A stretch of DNA of 64,000 nt from Hymenobacter armeniacus (GTDB lineage: Bacteria > Bacteroidota > Bacteroidia > Cytophagales > Hymenobacteraceae), in the NCBI RefSeq assembly GCF_014699055.1, contig NZ_JACXAC010000002.1:682001-746000 (forward strand), given 5' to 3'. Both the position numbers and the translations under genes were made by a program. The notes beneath the pieces were generated by a model, which was not told the origin of the DNA, made no database searches, and saw nothing but the letters and a program-made list of their open reading frames with translations. Positions 37,969 to 44,545 of the stretch are shown piece by piece; the stretch's first letter is position 1, and each line of letters begins with the position of its first letter.

Positions 37969-38018
37969 TAATTCAAATTGAATTAAAAGTTGATTGCGAA
38001 ATGACTAATTAATTAGTC
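37969..38018. promoter_or_regulatory. Two palindromic operator-like sites
   Basis: TAATTCAA-A-TTGAATTA (37969-37985) and the perfect 16-bp GACTAATTAATTAGTC (38003-38018) sit in AT-rich DNA 250-300 bases before the PcfJ gene. They look like binding sites of dimeric regulators. Confidence 0.55.
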
Positions 38019-38122
38019 GCAAATACCTGCCTACACCATCCCATTTTTCACGCTTAGTAAATCCGATTTTTCAACATGCGTCTCCACGTATTCAGCTCCG
38101 TCTTAATTCCGCCTGGGGCGGC

Positions 38123-38257
38123 GCGGCCACTGCAAGTAGTGGCCGCTTATAAACACCGGGGCCGCTGTGAGTGGCCCCGAAACCGACAGAAATCGGGCTG
38201 CCGACTGCGTGCGCCCGCCTCCTTTTTACCTTCTAGCTAAGCACTGCCCGCGGGCAG
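38123..38257 (+). other. Hairpin-rich leader of the PcfJ gene
   Basis: Three strong stems occur in the region before the start codon: GCGGCCACT/AGTGGCCGC (38123-38146), CGGGGCC/GGCCCCG (38157-38179) and CTGCCCG/CGGGCAG (38244-38257, ending 11 bases before the ATG). They may control translation. I see no coding sequence here. Confidence 0.5.
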
Positions 38258-38268
38258 GCCCCCGCTTT

Positions 38269-39561
38269 ATGGCAAACCGTAACAAACCTGTTTCTGCGGA
38301 AGCTTACCGCTGGGAGCAGGCCGGTGCCGCCCTTGCGCGGCACATCGACTGGCGCAAATGGCCCTTGTCGAAGCAAGTTGATTTTATGTTTTCCTTCACT
38401 TCGCCCCGCGAGTTGTACGAAGCCTTGGGCGTCAACGCCGAGTTGTCGCACTTGTACGCAGCCTGTGTGTTAGGGCGGCCGGTGGCAGCGCAGCACAGCA
38501 TTCGCAAAGCGCTGCAACTGCTGGCAACCAAGCGCGTAGCGGTGTTGCACCGACCCGAATTGGGGCCGGCGGTGGCAGCGCTGGCCGAACGCTACCAGCA
38601 ACGGGTGCGTGACATCGCCGACTGGAAGCCGAAAAGCAGCAATGCTTTTCGCCAGCTGGTGAGCTTGGTGCAGCACCTCTTTGACCAATACGGCAACCTG
38701 CCGGCGTGGCTGTTAAATACTTGGACGCAAACGGCATTGGTGGAAGATGGCGTGAACCTGCCAGACCTAACTCTGCATGTGGGCTGGGGCCGCTCACTCC
38801 GCAGTTTTCCCGGACTGCCCGTGAAACTCAGCAAACGGCTGGAGCACGGCATGCGGGAAGCACCTGCGGGCTGCACGTTTCGCGAAGCCTTGCGCTATGC
38901 CCAACTCGCCGCCCGCGATGCATTGGAATGGTGGGGCGTGGTGATGGAGTCGCGTTTGGGCCGAGCACCGCTGCTCGACGATGCCTTCTGGCTGGGCGTG
39001 GTGGATTTTTTCATTGCCACGCCCATGGTCGACCCGCGCCACTTGGGCCCCGTGTGCGACTGGATTCATCAGAAGCGTAGCGTGGGCATTGGGCCTGAAC
39101 CGCCGCAGCCAGGCTTTTCGCTGAAAGGCCGCAGCATGGTTTCGGTGCTCGCCCAAACCGAGCGCTGGCACCAGGCCGACGTCCGGCAGCGTCGTCAATC
39201 GGGCGATGCGGAACCGGACGTCAACCACCGCTGGGCGGGCTTGCCAGTGGCTGATTTCGTGGCCGGGTCGGTGCGCATTGAGCAGCTATTTACCTACGGC
39301 CAGCTCGTGGCCGAAGGCCGAGCTCTGCACCACTGCGTAGCCACCTACCTGCATTCGTGCCGCCAAGGCCGGTGCGGCATCTTCTCCCTAACGGTGGACG
39401 GGGCCCGCGCCCTGACCTTGGAGGTGGATTCCGGCCGCAAAGTGGTGCAGGTGCGCGGCAAGCACAACCGCTGGATGACCGCCGCGGAGCGCGACTGGAT
39501 AAACCAATGGCTCGACCAAGCCCGCTTGGTGCTGTCGCGGCACGTTCACATAACTGAGTAA
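38269..39561 (+). CDS. PcfJ-domain protein
   Basis: 430 residues from ATG 38269. The C-terminal ~110 residues match PcfJ: LFTYGQLVAEGRALHHCVATY (HHC at 354-356), GIFSLTVDGARALTLEVDS and VQVRGKHNRW. The remaining part is helical and not recognised. PcfJ proteins occur on conjugative plasmids and next to RNA-related genes; the biochemical role is unknown. It is followed by the TROVE gene after about 100 bases, so the two could be cotranscribed. Confidence 0.75.
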   Translation: MANRNKPVSAEAYRWEQAGAALARHIDWRKWPLSKQVDFMFSFTSPRELYEALGVNAELSHLYAACVLGRPVAAQHSIRKALQLLATKRVAVLHRPELGPAVAALAERYQQRVRDIADWKPKSSNAFRQLVSLVQHLFDQYGNLPAWLLNTWTQTALVEDGVNLPDLTLHVGWGRSLRSFPGLPVKLSKRLEHGMREAPAGCTFREALRYAQLAARDALEWWGVVMESRLGRAPLLDDAFWLGVVDFFIATPMVDPRHLGPVCDWIHQKRSVGIGPEPPQPGFSLKGRSMVSVLAQTERWHQADVRQRRQSGDAEPDVNHRWAGLPVADFVAGSVRIEQLFTYGQLVAEGRALHHCVATYLHSCRQGRCGIFSLTVDGARALTLEVDSGRKVVQVRGKHNRWMTAAERDWINQWLDQARLVLSRHVHITE

Positions 39562-39567
39562 ATGCCT

Positions 39568-39611
39568 GTGATGCGCTCAATGCGCATCACTGCCTGACCC
39601 TTGCAAGGGTC
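39568..39611 (+). other. Hairpin pair between PcfJ and TROVE genes
   Basis: GTGATGCGC/GCGCATCAC (39568-39590) and the palindrome GACCCTTGCAAGGGTC (39596-39611). No clear T-run follows. Confidence 0.5.
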
Positions 39612-39663
39612 TTCAAAAATTGGTCTTCAAAAATTAAAATCCCACCCTCTTAGCACGTTGCTT

Positions 39664-41190
39664 ATGCGCTTCAACTTCTTCTCCCGAAACCGCGCCCCCA
39701 CCACCGTCAACCACGAGGGCGCGCCCGCCTTCACGCTCACGCCCCAGGTCGAGCTGTATGCGGCCGTGGCCACGGCGGCGCTCAGCGACCTGTTCTACGA
39801 AAAAGCCGACACCCGCCTGACGCGCCTGCGTGAATTGGTGGCCAAAAACGAGCCGTTGTTCGTGGCTCAGCTGGCGGTATACGCCCGCGAAAGCCTGCAC
39901 TTGCGCTCGGTGCCGTTGGTACTGTGCGTGGAGCTGGCCCGCCTGCACCGCGGCGACAGCCTCCTGAGCCGCCTGGTGGCGCGGGTGGTGCAGCGCCCCG
40001 ACGAAATCACTGAATTGCTGGCCTATTACGCCCAGGCCAACGGCCGCGGCGGCACCAAAATCCTCAACCGCGTCTCCAAGCAGCTACAAAAAGGCCTGGC
40101 GCTCAGCTTCAATCGTTTCGACGGCTACCAGCTGGCGAAGTACGACCGCGCCGGGGCGGTGCGCCTGCGCGATGCCTTGTTTGTGGTGCACCCCAAAGCC
40201 CGCGACACAGCCCAGCAGGCCTTGTTCGACCAATTGGTGCGCGGCGAATTGCCCACGCCCTACACTTGGGAAACCGAGCTGTCGGCGGTGGGGCAGCAAG
40301 CCTTCACCACCGAAGCCGAGCGGCAAGCGGCCATCCGCCAGACCTGGGAAACGCTCATTGCGAGCGGCAAGCTGGGCTACATGGCCTTGCTCCGCAACCT
40401 ACGTAACATCCTCGAAGCCAATGTTTCGGCCGCGGCGATGGAGCGGGTGTGCGATACCCTCGCCGACCGGTTTGCGGTGGCGCGCAGCAAGCAGCTGCCG
40501 TTCCGTTTCCTGGCCGCCTACCGAGAGGTGAAAGCCGTGCAAAGCGGCCACGTAGCCGGCGTGTTGGCGGCCCTGGAAACGGCCATTGCGCACAGCGCCG
40601 TGAACCTGCGCGGCTTCGGGCCCGACACCCGCGTGGTGGTGTCCTGCGACGTGTCGAGCTCCATGCAGCAGCCCATTTCGGCGCGCAGCAAAGTGCTGCT
40701 CTACGACGTGAGCCTCGTGCTGGGCATGTTGCTGCAAAGCCGCTGCCAGCACGTGACCACCGGCATGTTCGGCAACACGTGGAAGCGCATCAGCCTGCCC
40801 CGCGGGCCGGTGCTCCGCAACGTGGAAGAGTTTTACCGCCGCGAAGGCGAGGTGGGCTATTCCACCAACGGCTACCTCGTGGTGCGCGACTTGCGCGAGC
40901 GCCGGGAAGTGGTCGACAAAGTGATGGTATTCACCGACGTGCAGCTGTGGAACAGCACCGGCGACGGCGGCACCCTGGCCCAGGAATGGGCCGAGTACCG
41001 CCGCACCGTGGCCCCCGGCGCCCGCCTCTACCTTTTCGACCTGGCCGGGCACGGCACCGCCCCGCTGGAGGTGCGCCCCGAAACGGGCGTGGCCCTCATC
41101 GCCGGCTGGTCCGACAAAGTATTCGACGTGGTTCAGGCGCTGGACAACGGCGGCTCGGCACTCTCGGAAATCGAGAAAATCGACTTGTAA
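39664..41190 (+). CDS. rsr: Ro60-like TROVE-domain protein (Rsr)
   Basis: 508 residues from ATG 39664 (MRFNFFSRNRAPTT). The N-terminal TROVE part consists of HEAT-like helices (AVATAALSDLFYEKADTRLTR, ESLHLRSVPLVLCVELARL, KLGYMALLRNLRNILE) that form the RNA-binding ring in Ro60. The C-terminal von Willebrand A domain has a MIDAS motif DVSSS (Asp329) and later VFTDVQLW. Ro proteins bind Y RNAs and misfolded RNA. The next genes here encode Y-like RNAs and RtcB, as in RNA-repair loci of other bacteria. Confidence 0.92.
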   Translation: MRFNFFSRNRAPTTVNHEGAPAFTLTPQVELYAAVATAALSDLFYEKADTRLTRLRELVAKNEPLFVAQLAVYARESLHLRSVPLVLCVELARLHRGDSLLSRLVARVVQRPDEITELLAYYAQANGRGGTKILNRVSKQLQKGLALSFNRFDGYQLAKYDRAGAVRLRDALFVVHPKARDTAQQALFDQLVRGELPTPYTWETELSAVGQQAFTTEAERQAAIRQTWETLIASGKLGYMALLRNLRNILEANVSAAAMERVCDTLADRFAVARSKQLPFRFLAAYREVKAVQSGHVAGVLAALETAIAHSAVNLRGFGPDTRVVVSCDVSSSMQQPISARSKVLLYDVSLVLGMLLQSRCQHVTTGMFGNTWKRISLPRGPVLRNVEEFYRREGEVGYSTNGYLVVRDLRERREVVDKVMVFTDVQLWNSTGDGGTLAQEWAEYRRTVAPGARLYLFDLAGHGTAPLEVRPETGVALIAGWSDKVFDVVQALDNGGSALSEIEKIDL

Positions 41191-41236
41191 CAACCACGCT
41201 GAACGGCCGGGCAATAAAGCGGAACCCCCGGCCGCC

Positions 41237-41322
41237 GCGTATTCGCGTCTCGGCATTGAACGATGATTTCCTGGACGACGCCCAAATGGCGCAAACGACG
41301 AGACGCGAATACGCGTCTCTAC
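41237..41322 (-). repeat. Dispersed palindromic repeat, family R2, copy a
   Basis: About 86 bases, with palindromic ends GCGTATTCGCGTCTC and GAGACGCGAATACGC and an inner part TTGAACGATGATTTCCTGG. It is inverted relative to copy b at 42021. Confidence 0.75.
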
Positions 41323-41383
41323 GACGGTGGCGAAGCCCCTCACTAATAATTTTTTCCTAAGCGAGAGCCTCTTAATCTACTAC

Positions 41384-41507
41384 CTGCCGAAAGGCAGAAT
41401 AAAAAACACGCTCATGACGTTAAAACACAGACTCCACGACTAGGAAGACGGCTGCCCAACAGGGCAGTCGCCGACCGGAACGGGCGCCCGCTGCGGCAGC
41501 CCGTTCC
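41384..41507 (+). ncRNA. Structured region before the Y-RNA array
   Basis: Three good stems occur in this non-coding stretch: CTGCC-GAAA-GGCAG with a GNRA loop, CTGCCC-AACA-GGGCAG (41452-41467) and GGAACGGG/CCCGTTCC (41477-41507). It lacks the GYCGTAG and CTGTTGC boxes of the Y-like RNAs. It may be a further small RNA or a leader of the array. Confidence 0.4.
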
Positions 41508-41517
41508 ACCTCGGTGG

Positions 41518-41663
41518 CATCCGCATGGTTCAGGTGCCGTAGGCGGGCGATACTTCGTTGGTTGAAATCTGACTATTAATCAGAGAGATTGGGTTCGAAT
41601 CCCCTGCTGTTGCCTCGGCAACAGCTGACGCGCCAGCTGCTTGTTGCCCTGAACTGGCGGATG
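41518..41663 (+). ncRNA. Y-RNA-like RNA 1 (tRNA-mimic head without D-arm)
   Basis: The ends pair as CATCCGC/GCGGATG and GGTTCAGG/CCTGAACT. Then follow the conserved box TGCCGTAG, the 7-bp inner stem GCGGGCG/CGCCAGC (one mismatch), ATACTTCG, and on the 3' side TGCTTGTTGC. The head holds an anticodon-arm-like hairpin TCTGA-CTATTAA-TCAGA, a T-loop TTCGAAT with a 3-bp stem, and an 8-bp capped stem GCTGTTGC-CTCG-GCAACAGC. A D-arm is missing. Confidence 0.75.
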
Positions 41664-41680
41664 AAGCCGAGAAAAAATAC

Positions 41681-41834
41681 GTTTCCGGGTGGGTGCCGTA
41701 GCCGGGCCTTCCTTCGCACCAACCTCAGGTGCGGTCGCGGGTTCGACTCCCGAAGTGCTGCCGCCAGGCAGGGCGACTGCAAATTGGTAGGGCCGCACCA
41801 GCTGGCCGGGCGCCTGTTGCCCCACGCCGGAAAC
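41681..41834 (+). ncRNA. Y-RNA-like RNA 2 (permuted tRNA-mimic head)
   Basis: Outer stem GTTTCCGGGTGGG with CCCACGCCGGAAAC (one bulge), box TGCCGTAG, inner stem CCGGGCC/GGCCGGG (one G-G), TTCCTTCG, and 3' box CGCCTGTTGC. The head has an anticodon-arm-like GCACC-AACCTCA-GGTGC, a T-arm around TTCGACT, a capped stem CTGCC-GCCA-GGCAG, and a degenerate D-arm (TTGGTAG retained). Confidence 0.8.
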
Positions 41835-41843
41835 TTCATGTCT

Positions 41844-42003
41844 AATCCCTGTCCGGGTGTCGTAGCCCGGCCATACTTCGCACTTTTAATGCCCAGGACG
41901 CGGGTTCAAGTCCCGCCGGTAGTTGCCGCAAGGCTGTCGCCGTAGCTCAGTTGGTTAGAGCAGGATATCGGAGGCCGGGCGCCTGTTGCCCCGGGCAGGG
42001 ATT
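41844..42003 (+). ncRNA. Y-RNA-like RNA 3 (permuted tRNA-mimic head)
   Basis: The ends pair over 14 bases, AATCCCTGTCCGGG with CCCGGGCAGGGATT. Box TGTCGTAG, perfect inner stem CCCGGCC/GGCCGGG, ATACTTCG and 3' box CGCCTGTTGC follow. The head has T-arm GCGGG-TTCAAGT-CCCGC, an acceptor-like stem capped by GCC-GCAA-GGC, and a full D-arm GCTC-AGTTGGTTA-GAGC. Its first bases, CACTTTTAATG, equal the anticodon-loop region of tRNA-Lys at 11586-11596. Confidence 0.88.
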
Positions 42004-42020
42004 TTGAGAAATTGAACGAA

Positions 42021-42106
42021 GTAGAGACGCAATATTTTGCGTCTCGTCGTCAGGAAATCGTCCGGCGAGTCGTTCAACGAGGAGACGCGAAGTGTCGCGT
42101 TTCTAC
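42021..42106 (+). repeat. Dispersed palindromic repeat, family R2, copy b
   Basis: GTAGAGACGC...GCGTCTC ends with inner CAGGAAATCGTC; 86 bases, opposite to copy a. It lies between Y-like RNAs 3 and 4. Confidence 0.75.
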
Positions 42107-42111
42107 ACCTC

Positions 42112-42191
42112 AGCCGGATGCCGTAGGCTTGCGTTCCTTCGACCTGTTAAGTCGCCTTTTGGCTCAACGCAAGTCGCCTGTCGCTCCGGTT
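42112..42191 (+). ncRNA. Y-RNA-like RNA 4 (minimal, no tRNA-like head)
   Basis: Outer stem AGCCGGA/TCCGGTT, box TGCCGTAG, inner stem GCTTGCG/CGCAAGT (one G-U), TTCCTTCG and 3' box CGCCTGTCGC are all kept, but only about 26 bases with one small hairpin (GCC-TTTT-GGC) form the head. A run of T follows, as at a terminator. Confidence 0.75.
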
Positions 42192-42198
42192 TTTAGCT

Positions 42199-42350
42199 GA
42201 TAAAATGGGCCGGTGCCGTAGCACCGCCATACTTCGTTCAGGTCGATGGGGTCGCCGGTTCGATTCCGGCTCGCGGGTTTCGGCCCGCGGTAGCTCAGTT
42301 GGTAGAGCACATATGTGGGCGGTGCGCCCTGTTGCCCGGTCCGTTTTATC
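42199..42350 (+). ncRNA. Y-RNA-like RNA 5 (permuted tRNA-mimic head)
   Basis: Outer stem GATAAAATGGGCCGG with CCGGTCCGTTTTATC, box TGCCGTAG, perfect inner stem CACCGCC/GGCGGTG, ATACTTCG and 3' CGCCCTGTTGC. The head has T-arm GCCGG-TTCGATT-CCGGC, an acceptor-like stem CGCGGG/CCCGCG closed by a small loop, TA, and D-arm GCTC-AGTTGGTA-GAGC. A T-run (42353-42359) follows. Confidence 0.9.
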
Positions 42351-42370
42351 TATTTTTTTCATCAACGAAC

Positions 42371-42393
42371 GAGACGCGAATACGCGTCTCTAC
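42371..42393. repeat. Dispersed palindromic repeat, family R2, copy c (short)
   Basis: GAGACGCGAATACGCGTCTC plus TAC, the palindromic end of the R2 family, 20 bases before the rtcB start. Confidence 0.7.
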
Positions 42394-42412
42394 CTCGTGC
42401 AACGACCATGTT

Positions 42413-43813
42413 ATGGCCACTCTTTTACGCGGCAACGACCTTCGCACCCTCGGGTTTCCCGAAGGCCGGGCCATTGGGCTCGCGCTGGCTCAATTGCAGC
42501 GCAAGCACCTCAAAAAACTCTCCCAAACCGACCAGCTTGCCTTGCTGGGTCAACTGTTAGCTAATCCCAAAGACTACCTCACCGACCTCGACTGGAGCCA
42601 CACCGCGGCGGCCTTGCTGCCGACGCCCTCGCGGCACATTGCGCTGGTGGAGCGCAAGCCCTACGCCACGTTCGGCGCCGAGCACATCGACCCCAGCGCC
42701 ATTCACCAGATGGAAACGGCCATGAAACTGCCCGTGACCGTGGCCGGCGCCCTCATGCCCGACGCCCACCACGGCTACGGCTTGCCCATTGGCGGGGTCC
42801 TGGCGACGGATAACGCGGTGATTCCCTACGCCGTGGGCGTCGACATCGGCTGCCGCATGGCCTTGTCGGTGTTCGATTTGCCGGCCAAGTACCTCACGCA
42901 ACGCGTGCAGGAATTGCGGACGGTGTTGCTCAATAACACCCGTTTCGGCTCCGGCCGGGGCTGGGAGCGGGGGCAGCGCATGGCCTCGGCCGTGCTGGAG
43001 CGCGACGAATTTCTGGAAATCCCTTTCCTGAAAAACAAGCGCGACAAAGCCGCCGAGCAAGTGGGCACTTCCGGTTCCGGCAACCACTTCGTGGAGTTCG
43101 GCATTGTCGAAATCACCGAAGCGGAAAACGAGCTGGGCGTGCCGGTGGGCCAGTACCTGGGCGTGCTCTCGCACTCCGGCTCGCGGGGCCTGGGCGCCGG
43201 CATTGCCGAGCACTACACCCGCCTGGCCAAAGACGTGTGCCAACTGCCCACCGAAGCCCAGCACCTCGCCTGGCTCGGCCTCGACACCGAAGCCGGCCAG
43301 GAGTACTGGGCGGCCATGAACCTGGCCGGCGACTACGCCTCGGCCTGCCACGCCCAAATTCACCAGCGCTTGGCCAAAGCCCTGGGCGAGCGGCCCGTGG
43401 CCAAAGTGGAAAACCACCACAACTTCGCCTGGAAGGAGCGGCTGGCCGATGGCCGCGAGGTGGTGGTGCACCGCAAAGGCGCCACGCCGGCCGGCGCAGG
43501 CGTGCTCGGCATCATCCCCGGCTCGATGACGGCGCCTGGCTTCATCGTGCGCGGCCGGGGATTGGCGGAGTCGTTGGCTTCGGCCTCGCACGGCGCCGGG
43601 CGGCTCATGTCGCGCACGCGGGCCAAGGCGGAGCTGACCGAATCGGGCGTGCGCAAGCACCTGGCCGAGCACGGCATCGAGCTCATCGGGGGCGGGCTTG
43701 ATGAGGCGCCGATGGCCTACAAGGACATCCACACCGTGATGGCCAGCCAGCGCGAGTTGGTGGATGTGCTGGGCTCGTTCACCCCAAAAATCGTGCGGAT
43801 GGACGGGGCGTAG
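42413..43813 (+). CDS. rtcB: RtcB-family RNA ligase
   Basis: 466 residues from ATG 42413 (MATLLRGNDLRTLG). RtcB joins RNA 2',3'-cyclic phosphate and 5'-OH ends using GTP and Mn. Landmarks: MPDAHHGYGLPIGGVLATD, VGVDIGCRM (Cys147; many RtcB read DIGCGM), GTSGSGNHFVEFG, LSHSGSRGLG, HRKGATPAGAG and the ASHGAGR segment (His393), which by memory contains the guanylylated histidine in characterised enzymes. It lies directly after the Y-RNA array and on the same strand. Confidence 0.95.
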   Translation: MATLLRGNDLRTLGFPEGRAIGLALAQLQRKHLKKLSQTDQLALLGQLLANPKDYLTDLDWSHTAAALLPTPSRHIALVERKPYATFGAEHIDPSAIHQMETAMKLPVTVAGALMPDAHHGYGLPIGGVLATDNAVIPYAVGVDIGCRMALSVFDLPAKYLTQRVQELRTVLLNNTRFGSGRGWERGQRMASAVLERDEFLEIPFLKNKRDKAAEQVGTSGSGNHFVEFGIVEITEAENELGVPVGQYLGVLSHSGSRGLGAGIAEHYTRLAKDVCQLPTEAQHLAWLGLDTEAGQEYWAAMNLAGDYASACHAQIHQRLAKALGERPVAKVENHHNFAWKERLADGREVVVHRKGATPAGAGVLGIIPGSMTAPGFIVRGRGLAESLASASHGAGRLMSRTRAKAELTESGVRKHLAEHGIELIGGGLDEAPMAYKDIHTVMASQRELVDVLGSFTPKIVRMDGA

Positions 43814-44386: not shown

Positions 44387-44545
44387 ATGTCGAACCAGAT
44401 TCGCGGCAACGACCTTCGCAAAATCGGCTACCCCGCGGGGCCGGCCATTGGCCGCACCCTTGATGTGCTGGCCCCACAGCCTTTCAGCCTATTAAACGAC
44501 AATAAAATCCAACCAGCCAAACCAATTACCTGCCATCTGGCGTAG
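44387..44545 (+). pseudogene. N-terminal fragment of a second rtcB
   Basis: A 52-codon frame begins MSNQIRGNDLRKIGYPAG and PAIGRTLDVL, clearly related to the start of the intact RtcB (LLRGNDLRTLGFPEGRAIG). A 19-base block (CGCGGCAACGACCTTCGCA) is identical in both. The fragment then loses similarity and stops. Confidence 0.8.

Follow-up and report, generated by a model that had tools for sequence, protein, structure and literature searches.

The window analysed here, 64,000 nucleotides of the Hymenobacter armeniacus genome (contig NZ_JACXAC010000002.1, positions 682,001 to 746,000 of the forward strand), carries on its + strand a gene for a PcfJ-domain protein, rsr encoding a Ro60 family protein, five predicted tandem RNAs (41522-42347) and rtcB encoding an RNA ligase, in this order. 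Judged by sequence, these RNAs belong to an array of Y RNAs found across the clade, and tRNA anticodon loops are presented by many of the copies. Their effector domain is very probably a circularly permuted tRNA, in which the acceptor stem is sealed by a short loop and, in many copies, the anticodon arm is kept. A preliminary description of the locus had recognized the genes and the Y-like RNAs, and this part of it stands; that copies are permuted tRNAs, sealed and with anticodon loops that vary, had been overlooked.

The consensus structure was written by us for alignment A1 (n=47) and comprises 45 pairs, with 91.3% of cells paired. Pairs changed on both sides numbered 31, compared to 26.9 in shuffled alignments, and this number was reached by 6 of 500 shuffles. 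The covariation score was 0.507, compared to 0.195 in shuffles, none of which (0/500) reached the real value; slid alignments scored 0.09-0.162. The lack of covariation in related genomes, which the preliminary description had named as a finding that would count against it, thus did not occur. Chance or composition as the origin of the structure was ruled out by the covariation, the slides and the shuffles.

Each RNA in A1 is laid out as a basal stem formed from both ends, an internal loop, an inner stem and the effector domain. Helices 1 and 2, the long stem joining the RNA ends, had both-side changes in 17 of 22 pairs, and such changes were found in all stems except the D stem, which is invariant. 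The internal loop consists of the boxes GYCGUA and UGUUGC plus an unpaired C, which is surrounded by pairs 15-148, 16-147 and 18-146. The form GYCGUA was found in 290 of 309 boxes, which had been sought as GNYGUA, and resembles the vertebrate Ro60 site described in PMC4726728, where binding of the basal stem of bacterial Y RNA by Ro60-family proteins is also reported. UAGCUCA, the D-arm GAGC and the T-arm GUU are among the columns that do not vary in A1. Such invariant parts of the D and T arms form the elbow of a tRNA.

In tRNA numbering, the effector domain begins with the anticodon hairpin (29-43) and continues with the variable nucleotides 44-48, the T arm, the 3' acceptor strand, the short loop, the 5' acceptor strand, positions 8-9, the D arm, position 26 and positions 27-28. 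The anticodon arm was located by counting back from the T arm, with no search for pairs. Boxed stretches numbered 379 (309 plus 81, less 11 from dropped loci), and 99 of the 123 that have a T arm and a D arm together have room for the anticodon arm. At least four of the five anticodon-stem pairs were present in 92 of these 99 copies, and all five in 70. When partners were re-dealt among copies, the mean was 32 and the maximum 45 of 99, and when the 3' strand was slid by 1-4 nt, the count was at most 23 of 99. Pair 27-43 was GC in 62 copies, CG in 32 and AU in 3, while pair 28-42 was GC in 59, AU in 22, CG in 10 and UA in 3; the strands of these two pairs lie about 70 nt apart. Since the counted anticodon-stem pairs hold, including the distant 27-43 and 28-42, the consensus places a Ro-type stem as an insertion between tRNA positions 28 and 29.

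The acceptor hairpin is closed by a loop of 4 nt in 68 of the 92 copies; 39 have an acceptor region of fewer than 22 nt, and only 2 have CCA where a tRNA would end. Because the acceptor is sealed by a 4-nt loop and CCA is rare, charging or translational use of the RNAs appears unlikely. Outside Hymenobacteraceae, the anticodon arm was kept in 19 of 20 such copies, from 16 loci. By simple patterns, further copies of relatives had a D arm of the Leu type (13) or of the Ser type (11). In Flavobacterium loci (e.g., L172:6759-6900), we also observed a second RNA with the same boxes, in which a T-arm-like part seemingly comes last, so that it would not share this permutation.

All five RNAs lie on the + strand, as the preliminary description had proposed. 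A covariance model, R1, was built from the 47 sequences, copy 3 among them, and recovered copies 1, 2, 3 and 5; elsewhere in the host genome it had no match of comparable strength, the next best having 33.9 bits and lying at tRNA genes. Copy 4 was identified by its boxes and its fold, and is missing from the R1 matches in the host genome at E <= 1. Copy 3 (41845-42001; row 1 of A1; R1 154.1 bits, E 5e-40) is predicted to be a permuted tRNA that has a T arm, a sealed acceptor and a D arm, and in which the anticodon arm is split. Its anticodon loop (41883-41889) is identical to that of tRNA-Lys(UUU) and sits on a split five-pair stem, whose strands correspond to positions 29-31 (41880-41882), 39-43 (41890-41894) and 27-28 (41963-41964). 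Then follow the T arm (41900-41916; 99.6% of cells paired in 47 sequences), the acceptor hairpin with its short closing loop (41917-41942) and the D arm (41945-41961), the four pairs of which are invariant in 47 of 47 sequences. Copy 5 (42201-42347; R1 110.2 bits, E 7e-28) likewise has a predicted T arm, sealed acceptor and D arm. Its anticodon loop, with the triplet CAG (42237-42243), is one base away from the tRNA-Leu(CAG) loop, and 5 of 5 anticodon-stem pairs were found by counting. By these alignments and matches, copies 3 and 5, i.e., at least two of the five RNAs, fit the covarying consensus of a sealed permuted tRNA.

The remaining copies are less complete. Within copy 1 (41522-41659; R1 52.6 bits, E 7e-12), the stretch 41567-41585, with its loop at 41573-41579, resembles the anticodon arm of the host's own tRNA-Asn at 18 of 19 bases, the sole change being G34 to A, and it is identical at 19 of 19 bases in the matching copies of loci L040 and L041. 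No D arm of copy 1 was matched by the search pattern. Copy 2 (41681-41833; R1 65.8 bits, E 2e-15) has a T arm. Copy 4 (42106-42197) is short; it has a simple 4-pair hairpin with a native tRNA-Asn(GUU) loop (42144-42150), and neither a T arm nor a D arm was recognized in it. Single-sequence folding gave z values of -1.9, -0.07, -0.25, -2.49 and -3.4 for copies 1 to 5, respectively. Single-sequence folding by itself is insufficient to reveal the consensus structure.

A tRNA-Lys gene called by ARAGORN at 41855-41927 was rejected, as it sits within copy 3 and the Rfam tRNA model gave no match there at its gathering score; automatic annotation may thus record such Y RNAs as tRNAs. Palindromic repeats around GAGACGCGAATACGCGTCTC were seen by eye beside and between the RNAs, at 41237-41330, 42017-42105 and 42366-42398.

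Next, we considered the sequence of the anticodon loop. U33 was kept in 85 of the 92 copies and a purine at position 37 in 88, while the triplet 34-36 took 30 forms. Loops identical to the host's own tRNA loops occurred in 29 of 92 copies (Lys 19, Asn 4, His 2, Gln 1, Asp 1, Pro(UGG) 1 and Pro(GGG) 1), counts that are non-independent events, as the copies share kinship. When distinct loops were counted, 7 of 51 were native, compared to a mean of 2.3 in column shuffles, of which 17 out of 5000 reached 7. In a test that does not use the counting rule, a native loop was found in a hairpin in 51 of 307 segments, compared to 1.2 (maximum 6) in shuffles; the controls gave 0 of 307 in the reverse complement and 2 of 224 downstream of the T arm. 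Three of the four ATGGGGT matches in this test lay away from the counted site and were chance-like.

The loops fall into two groups, one with A37 (58 of 68 copies) and one with G37 (18 of 24). In the latter group, 20 different loops were found among the 24 copies, on an almost constant stem. In 37 pairs of copies at least 85% identical, the triplet columns changed at 4.7 times the rate of the rest, ranking 1, 6 and 5 of 154, while U33 was changed in 3%. In 19 disjoint pairs, changes were found at 19 of 57 anticodon sites versus 314 of 2719 other sites (p 1.6e-5). One copy in locus L080 shares 99% identity with a copy in L082 once the loop is set aside, yet two of their three triplet positions are different. 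The counterpart of copy 3 in L041 carries a His loop.

Relatives of Rsr were found in 68 of 150 Hymenobacteraceae genomes, the host included. The 61 loci analysed comprise the host locus and those of 60 of the 67 other rsr-bearing genomes of the family. The number of boxes per locus was 2-9, with at least three in 59 of the 61 loci and a few boxes off target; R1 had 340 matches in these loci at E <= 0.001, 300 of which were among the matches listed. In 51 of the 61 loci, rtcB lies 3' of rsr and the RNAs, on the same strand. The layout is therefore common in the clade and not the unusual version for which it had initially been taken. Two RtcB genes were found downstream of rsr in 12 of the 61 loci. 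Flavobacterium or other Flavobacteriaceae accounted for 18 of the 30 named loci L163-L192, and in 14 of these 18 rtcB follows rsr and the RNAs.

Among 296 Bacteroidota genomes, 21 had a full-length R1 match at E <= 1e-9, and rsr was present in 21 out of 21; this cut-off was picked after viewing the match list. Of the other 275 genomes, which lack such a match, only 4 have rsr (Fisher p 1.7e-28). In 19 of the 21 genomes, the RNA follows rsr on the same strand at a distance of up to about 2.5 kb; in G244 it is upstream and in G427 on another contig. The next full-length match (3.4e-9) was found in G404, a genome with no rsr match, and weaker ones in further rsr-less genomes. At E <= 0.001, R1 matches 257 of the 296 genomes, because its core also matches tRNA genes. 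Partial R1 matches (model positions 36-116) are frequent, and in the host genome they lie at tRNA genes; such matches are expected if the core of R1 reads the end of one tRNA and then the start of the next.

In two genomes, G036 and G149 (loci L218 and L219), rsr is internally deleted, with the first 82-87 and the last 34-41 residues retained in apparently one open frame; the RNAs and rtcB persist there despite the deletion. Among the other rtcB loci with no full rsr, RNAs were not found in L214, L215, L216 and L220, the last of which holds only an rtcB fragment, and were weak in L213 and in L217, which holds an rsr fragment.

The protein genes beside the RNAs bear out the families first assigned to them. 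The product of rsr (39664-41190, + strand; 508 aa) passes the cut-off for the TROVE domain (PF05731, 99.2 bits versus 23), while its Ro60 von Willebrand factor A (vWA) domain, at 23.8 bits (PF25045), falls slightly short of the cut-off of 27.7. Because it scores only 25.5 bits on the NCBI equivalog model of Rsr (NF041674), the cut-off of which is 900, Rsr is, by these model scores, a divergent member of the Ro60 family. Its nearest solved relatives by sequence comparison are the TROVE proteins 9l5y and 9kop; its closest named relatives are from Hymenobacter species, and it is 97% identical to a protein of H. ruricola. The stretch D-V-S-S-S, which we take to be the MIDAS motif, is kept within the vWA part. 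The rtcB gene follows the array (42413-43813, + strand; PF01139, 284 bits), and its product matches solved RtcB chains at E 1e-31. An open stretch with an RtcB-like start (MSNQIRGNDLRKIGYPAGPAIG) at 44387-44536 is likely the remnant of a second rtcB. Whole-genome searches of the host (5.28 Mb, completeness 100) found a single rsr and a single rtcB, and zero matches to RtcA (PF01137) or RtcR (PF06956), the two genes whose absence had been noted at the locus. A link of the locus to RNA repair, as had been suggested, is likely right.

The gene with the PcfJ domain (38269-39561, + strand; PF14284, 55 bits) had been noted as coming first in the locus. This placement is not characteristic: the gene is an optional neighbour, which stands directly upstream of rsr in only 24 of the 61 loci and in 5 separates the RNAs from rtcB. 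None of PcfJ, Rsr and RtcB was matched by PADLOC. A TIGR02452-like gene was seen in 19 of the 61 loci, including L047:4352-5209 (coordinates read in the orientation of rsr); in 11 of the 12 gaps inspected, such a gene lies between rsr and the RNAs. TIGR02452 is a PARG-like macrodomain family, and a link between ADP-ribose and RNA repair is possible. Scans for sigma-70 promoters (0 found versus 0.4 in shuffles) and for terminators (1 found versus 1.4 in shuffles) were uninformative, and a Bacteroidota promoter pattern had zero instances in 38001-42450.

What might these RNAs do? Our tentative proposal, the likeliest of those considered but given somewhat less than even confidence, is that the RNAs of the array serve as decoys for anticodon nucleases and that RtcB reseals the cuts. 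Rsr would bind the basal stem and keep the RNAs stable. The sealed acceptor end would exclude them from charging and translation, while the displayed anticodon arm would be a tRNA look-alike for enzymes that read the loop. Anticodon-cutting enzymes, such as AriB of PARIS, would then be spent on the decoys, and the several paralogues per genome, by showing several anticodons, would absorb nucleases of differing specificity. RtcB would restore both the decoy and the tRNA. Enzymes other than AriB also cut at anticodon loops. According to PMC11455837, AriB cleaves tRNA-Lys. In PMC7790460, the role of Rsr and Y RNAs beside RtcB is treated as an open question, and competitive inhibition of an anticodon nuclease is raised as one possibility for the tRNA-like domain of YrlA; it is also stated there that, in archaea and eukaryotes, RtcB seals anticodon loops from which introns have been removed. 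A wider version of the proposal is more speculative. Bacteroidota may hold a fast-changing library of sealed tRNA decoys beside Ro60 and RtcB, whose set of anticodons would be renewed as an arms race proceeds against anticodon nucleases from phages, from rivals or from the defence systems of the cell itself, while RtcB would reseal bait and tRNA.

Several observations weigh against a decoy function or the structure on which it builds. The 47 sequences of A1 were chosen by hand from 60 candidates of one class. The consensus computed by RNAalifold has the same helices minus the anticodon hairpin, and in A1 the anticodon helix has 83.7% of cells paired and a single pair changed on both sides. The T arm and the D arm occur together in only 123 of the 379 boxed stretches, and in the others, copies 1, 2 and 4 of the window included, the two arms together were not recognized by this test; no anticodon-like loop was recognized in copy 2. 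Copies 2 and 3 receive little support from single-sequence folding, and the lowest-energy folds of copies 1 and 5 put a competing hairpin at the anticodon site. The loop differs from any native loop in 63 of the 92 copies. Columns of the acceptor stem, the cap and the outer stem vary about as fast as the anticodon columns; because these least constrained columns are equally variable, the triplet pattern is one of variability beside a fixed U33 and not proof of positive selection. Within the fetched stretch, rtcB was not seen downstream in 10 of the 61 loci (L090-L099), in one of which, L092, the contig stops 1.8 kb past rsr. Finally, Salmonella YrlA was uncut by the nuclease studied, according to PMC7790460.

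The array should also be compared to the Y RNAs already described. YrlA (RF02553), from the Salmonella locus rsr-yrlBA-rtcBA, is likewise encoded beside rsr and rtcB, has a stem formed from the RNA ends, and shows the same permuted order of T arm, acceptor hairpin and D arm. For YrlA, PMC8394870 lists a basal stem and only D, T and acceptor arms. The RNAs described here, in contrast, additionally possess an anticodon arm, the triplet of which is variable, and are present in several copies per locus. The Rfam model of YrlA requires an insertion at the anticodon-loop site when placed on copy 3, and its gathering score of 69 was not reached by copy 5 (35.4 bits) or copy 3 (31.8 bits). Plain identity to YrlA by Rfam was rejected, since these matches are below threshold and unspecific; such matches occur in 11 of 14 control genomes at E <= 0.1. 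The rtcBA operon with RtcR likewise brings RtcB together with Rsr and Y-like RNAs, whereas the host genome is without RtcA and RtcR. Among the open-licence papers searched, none was found to describe Y RNAs with anticodon arms, or arrays of this kind in Bacteroidota, and an earlier description is possible.

Given this likeness, the RNAs could be ordinary Y RNA tethers, linking Rsr and an effector, for instance PNPase, in the manner of RYPER (Rsr, Y RNA, PNPase), with the tRNA shape, including the anticodon arm, serving only for effector binding. Such a role of Y RNA is known in Deinococcus, and Salmonella Rsr and YrlA bind PNPase, as stated in PMC8394870 and PMC9879122. The order of T arm, acceptor hairpin and D arm, shared with the Rfam YrlA, is in keeping with a tether, and both RYPER and the present locus pair a Ro60 family protein with Y-like RNAs. 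The locus differs from RYPER in having several RNAs that bear different anticodon loops, and a tether leaves unexplained why U33 is kept while the triplet next to it changes, why native loops are in excess and why there are several paralogues with different triplets. We consider this explanation less likely than the decoys, although it deserves attention.

We regard as unlikely the suggestion that the RNAs are a docking platform, whose tRNA-like domains would bring RtcB or tRNA-modifying enzymes to Ro60 for the capture and resealing of broken tRNAs, with the anticodon arm as the docking site. The position of rtcB after the array in 51 of 61 loci is consistent with it, as is the presence of RtcB in 67 of the 68 rsr-bearing Hymenobacteraceae genomes. 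However, RtcB was also found in 51 of the 82 genomes of the family with no rsr match, and constancy would be expected of a docking site, whereas the anticodon varies.

The full tRNA core and the split anticodon stem, next to a ligase of the tRNA-splicing family, also bring to mind permuted tRNA genes, in which the tRNA 3' half precedes the 5' half as it does here. If the Ro-type stem were removed and RtcB joined position 28 to 29, functional tRNAs would result. This is very improbable in view of the 4-nt acceptor loops (68/92), the short acceptor regions (39/92) and the scarcity of CCA (2/92), and the triplet UUA in L068 would read a stop codon. Unlike circularly permuted tRNA genes, the array RNAs have sealed acceptor ends and lack CCA, and no tRNA appears releasable, to judge by the sequence. 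That the RNAs are functionless debris of tRNA genes, an idea to which the matches of the R1 core to tRNA genes lend themselves (in the host, to neighbouring ones, a 3' half and then the next 5' half), can practically be dismissed given the both-side changes outside the D stem, the long-range anticodon pairs in 92 of 99 copies and the linkage to rsr.

In conclusion, a Y RNA with a changeable anticodon loop forms a direct and testable link among Rsr, Y RNAs and RtcB. If the decoy proposal is true, enzymes that cause the damage mended by RtcB would have these RNAs as their substrates or inhibitors. The cell would then possess a new means of withstanding toxins that cut tRNAs and nucleases of phage defence, and the permuted tRNA would have gained a new use.

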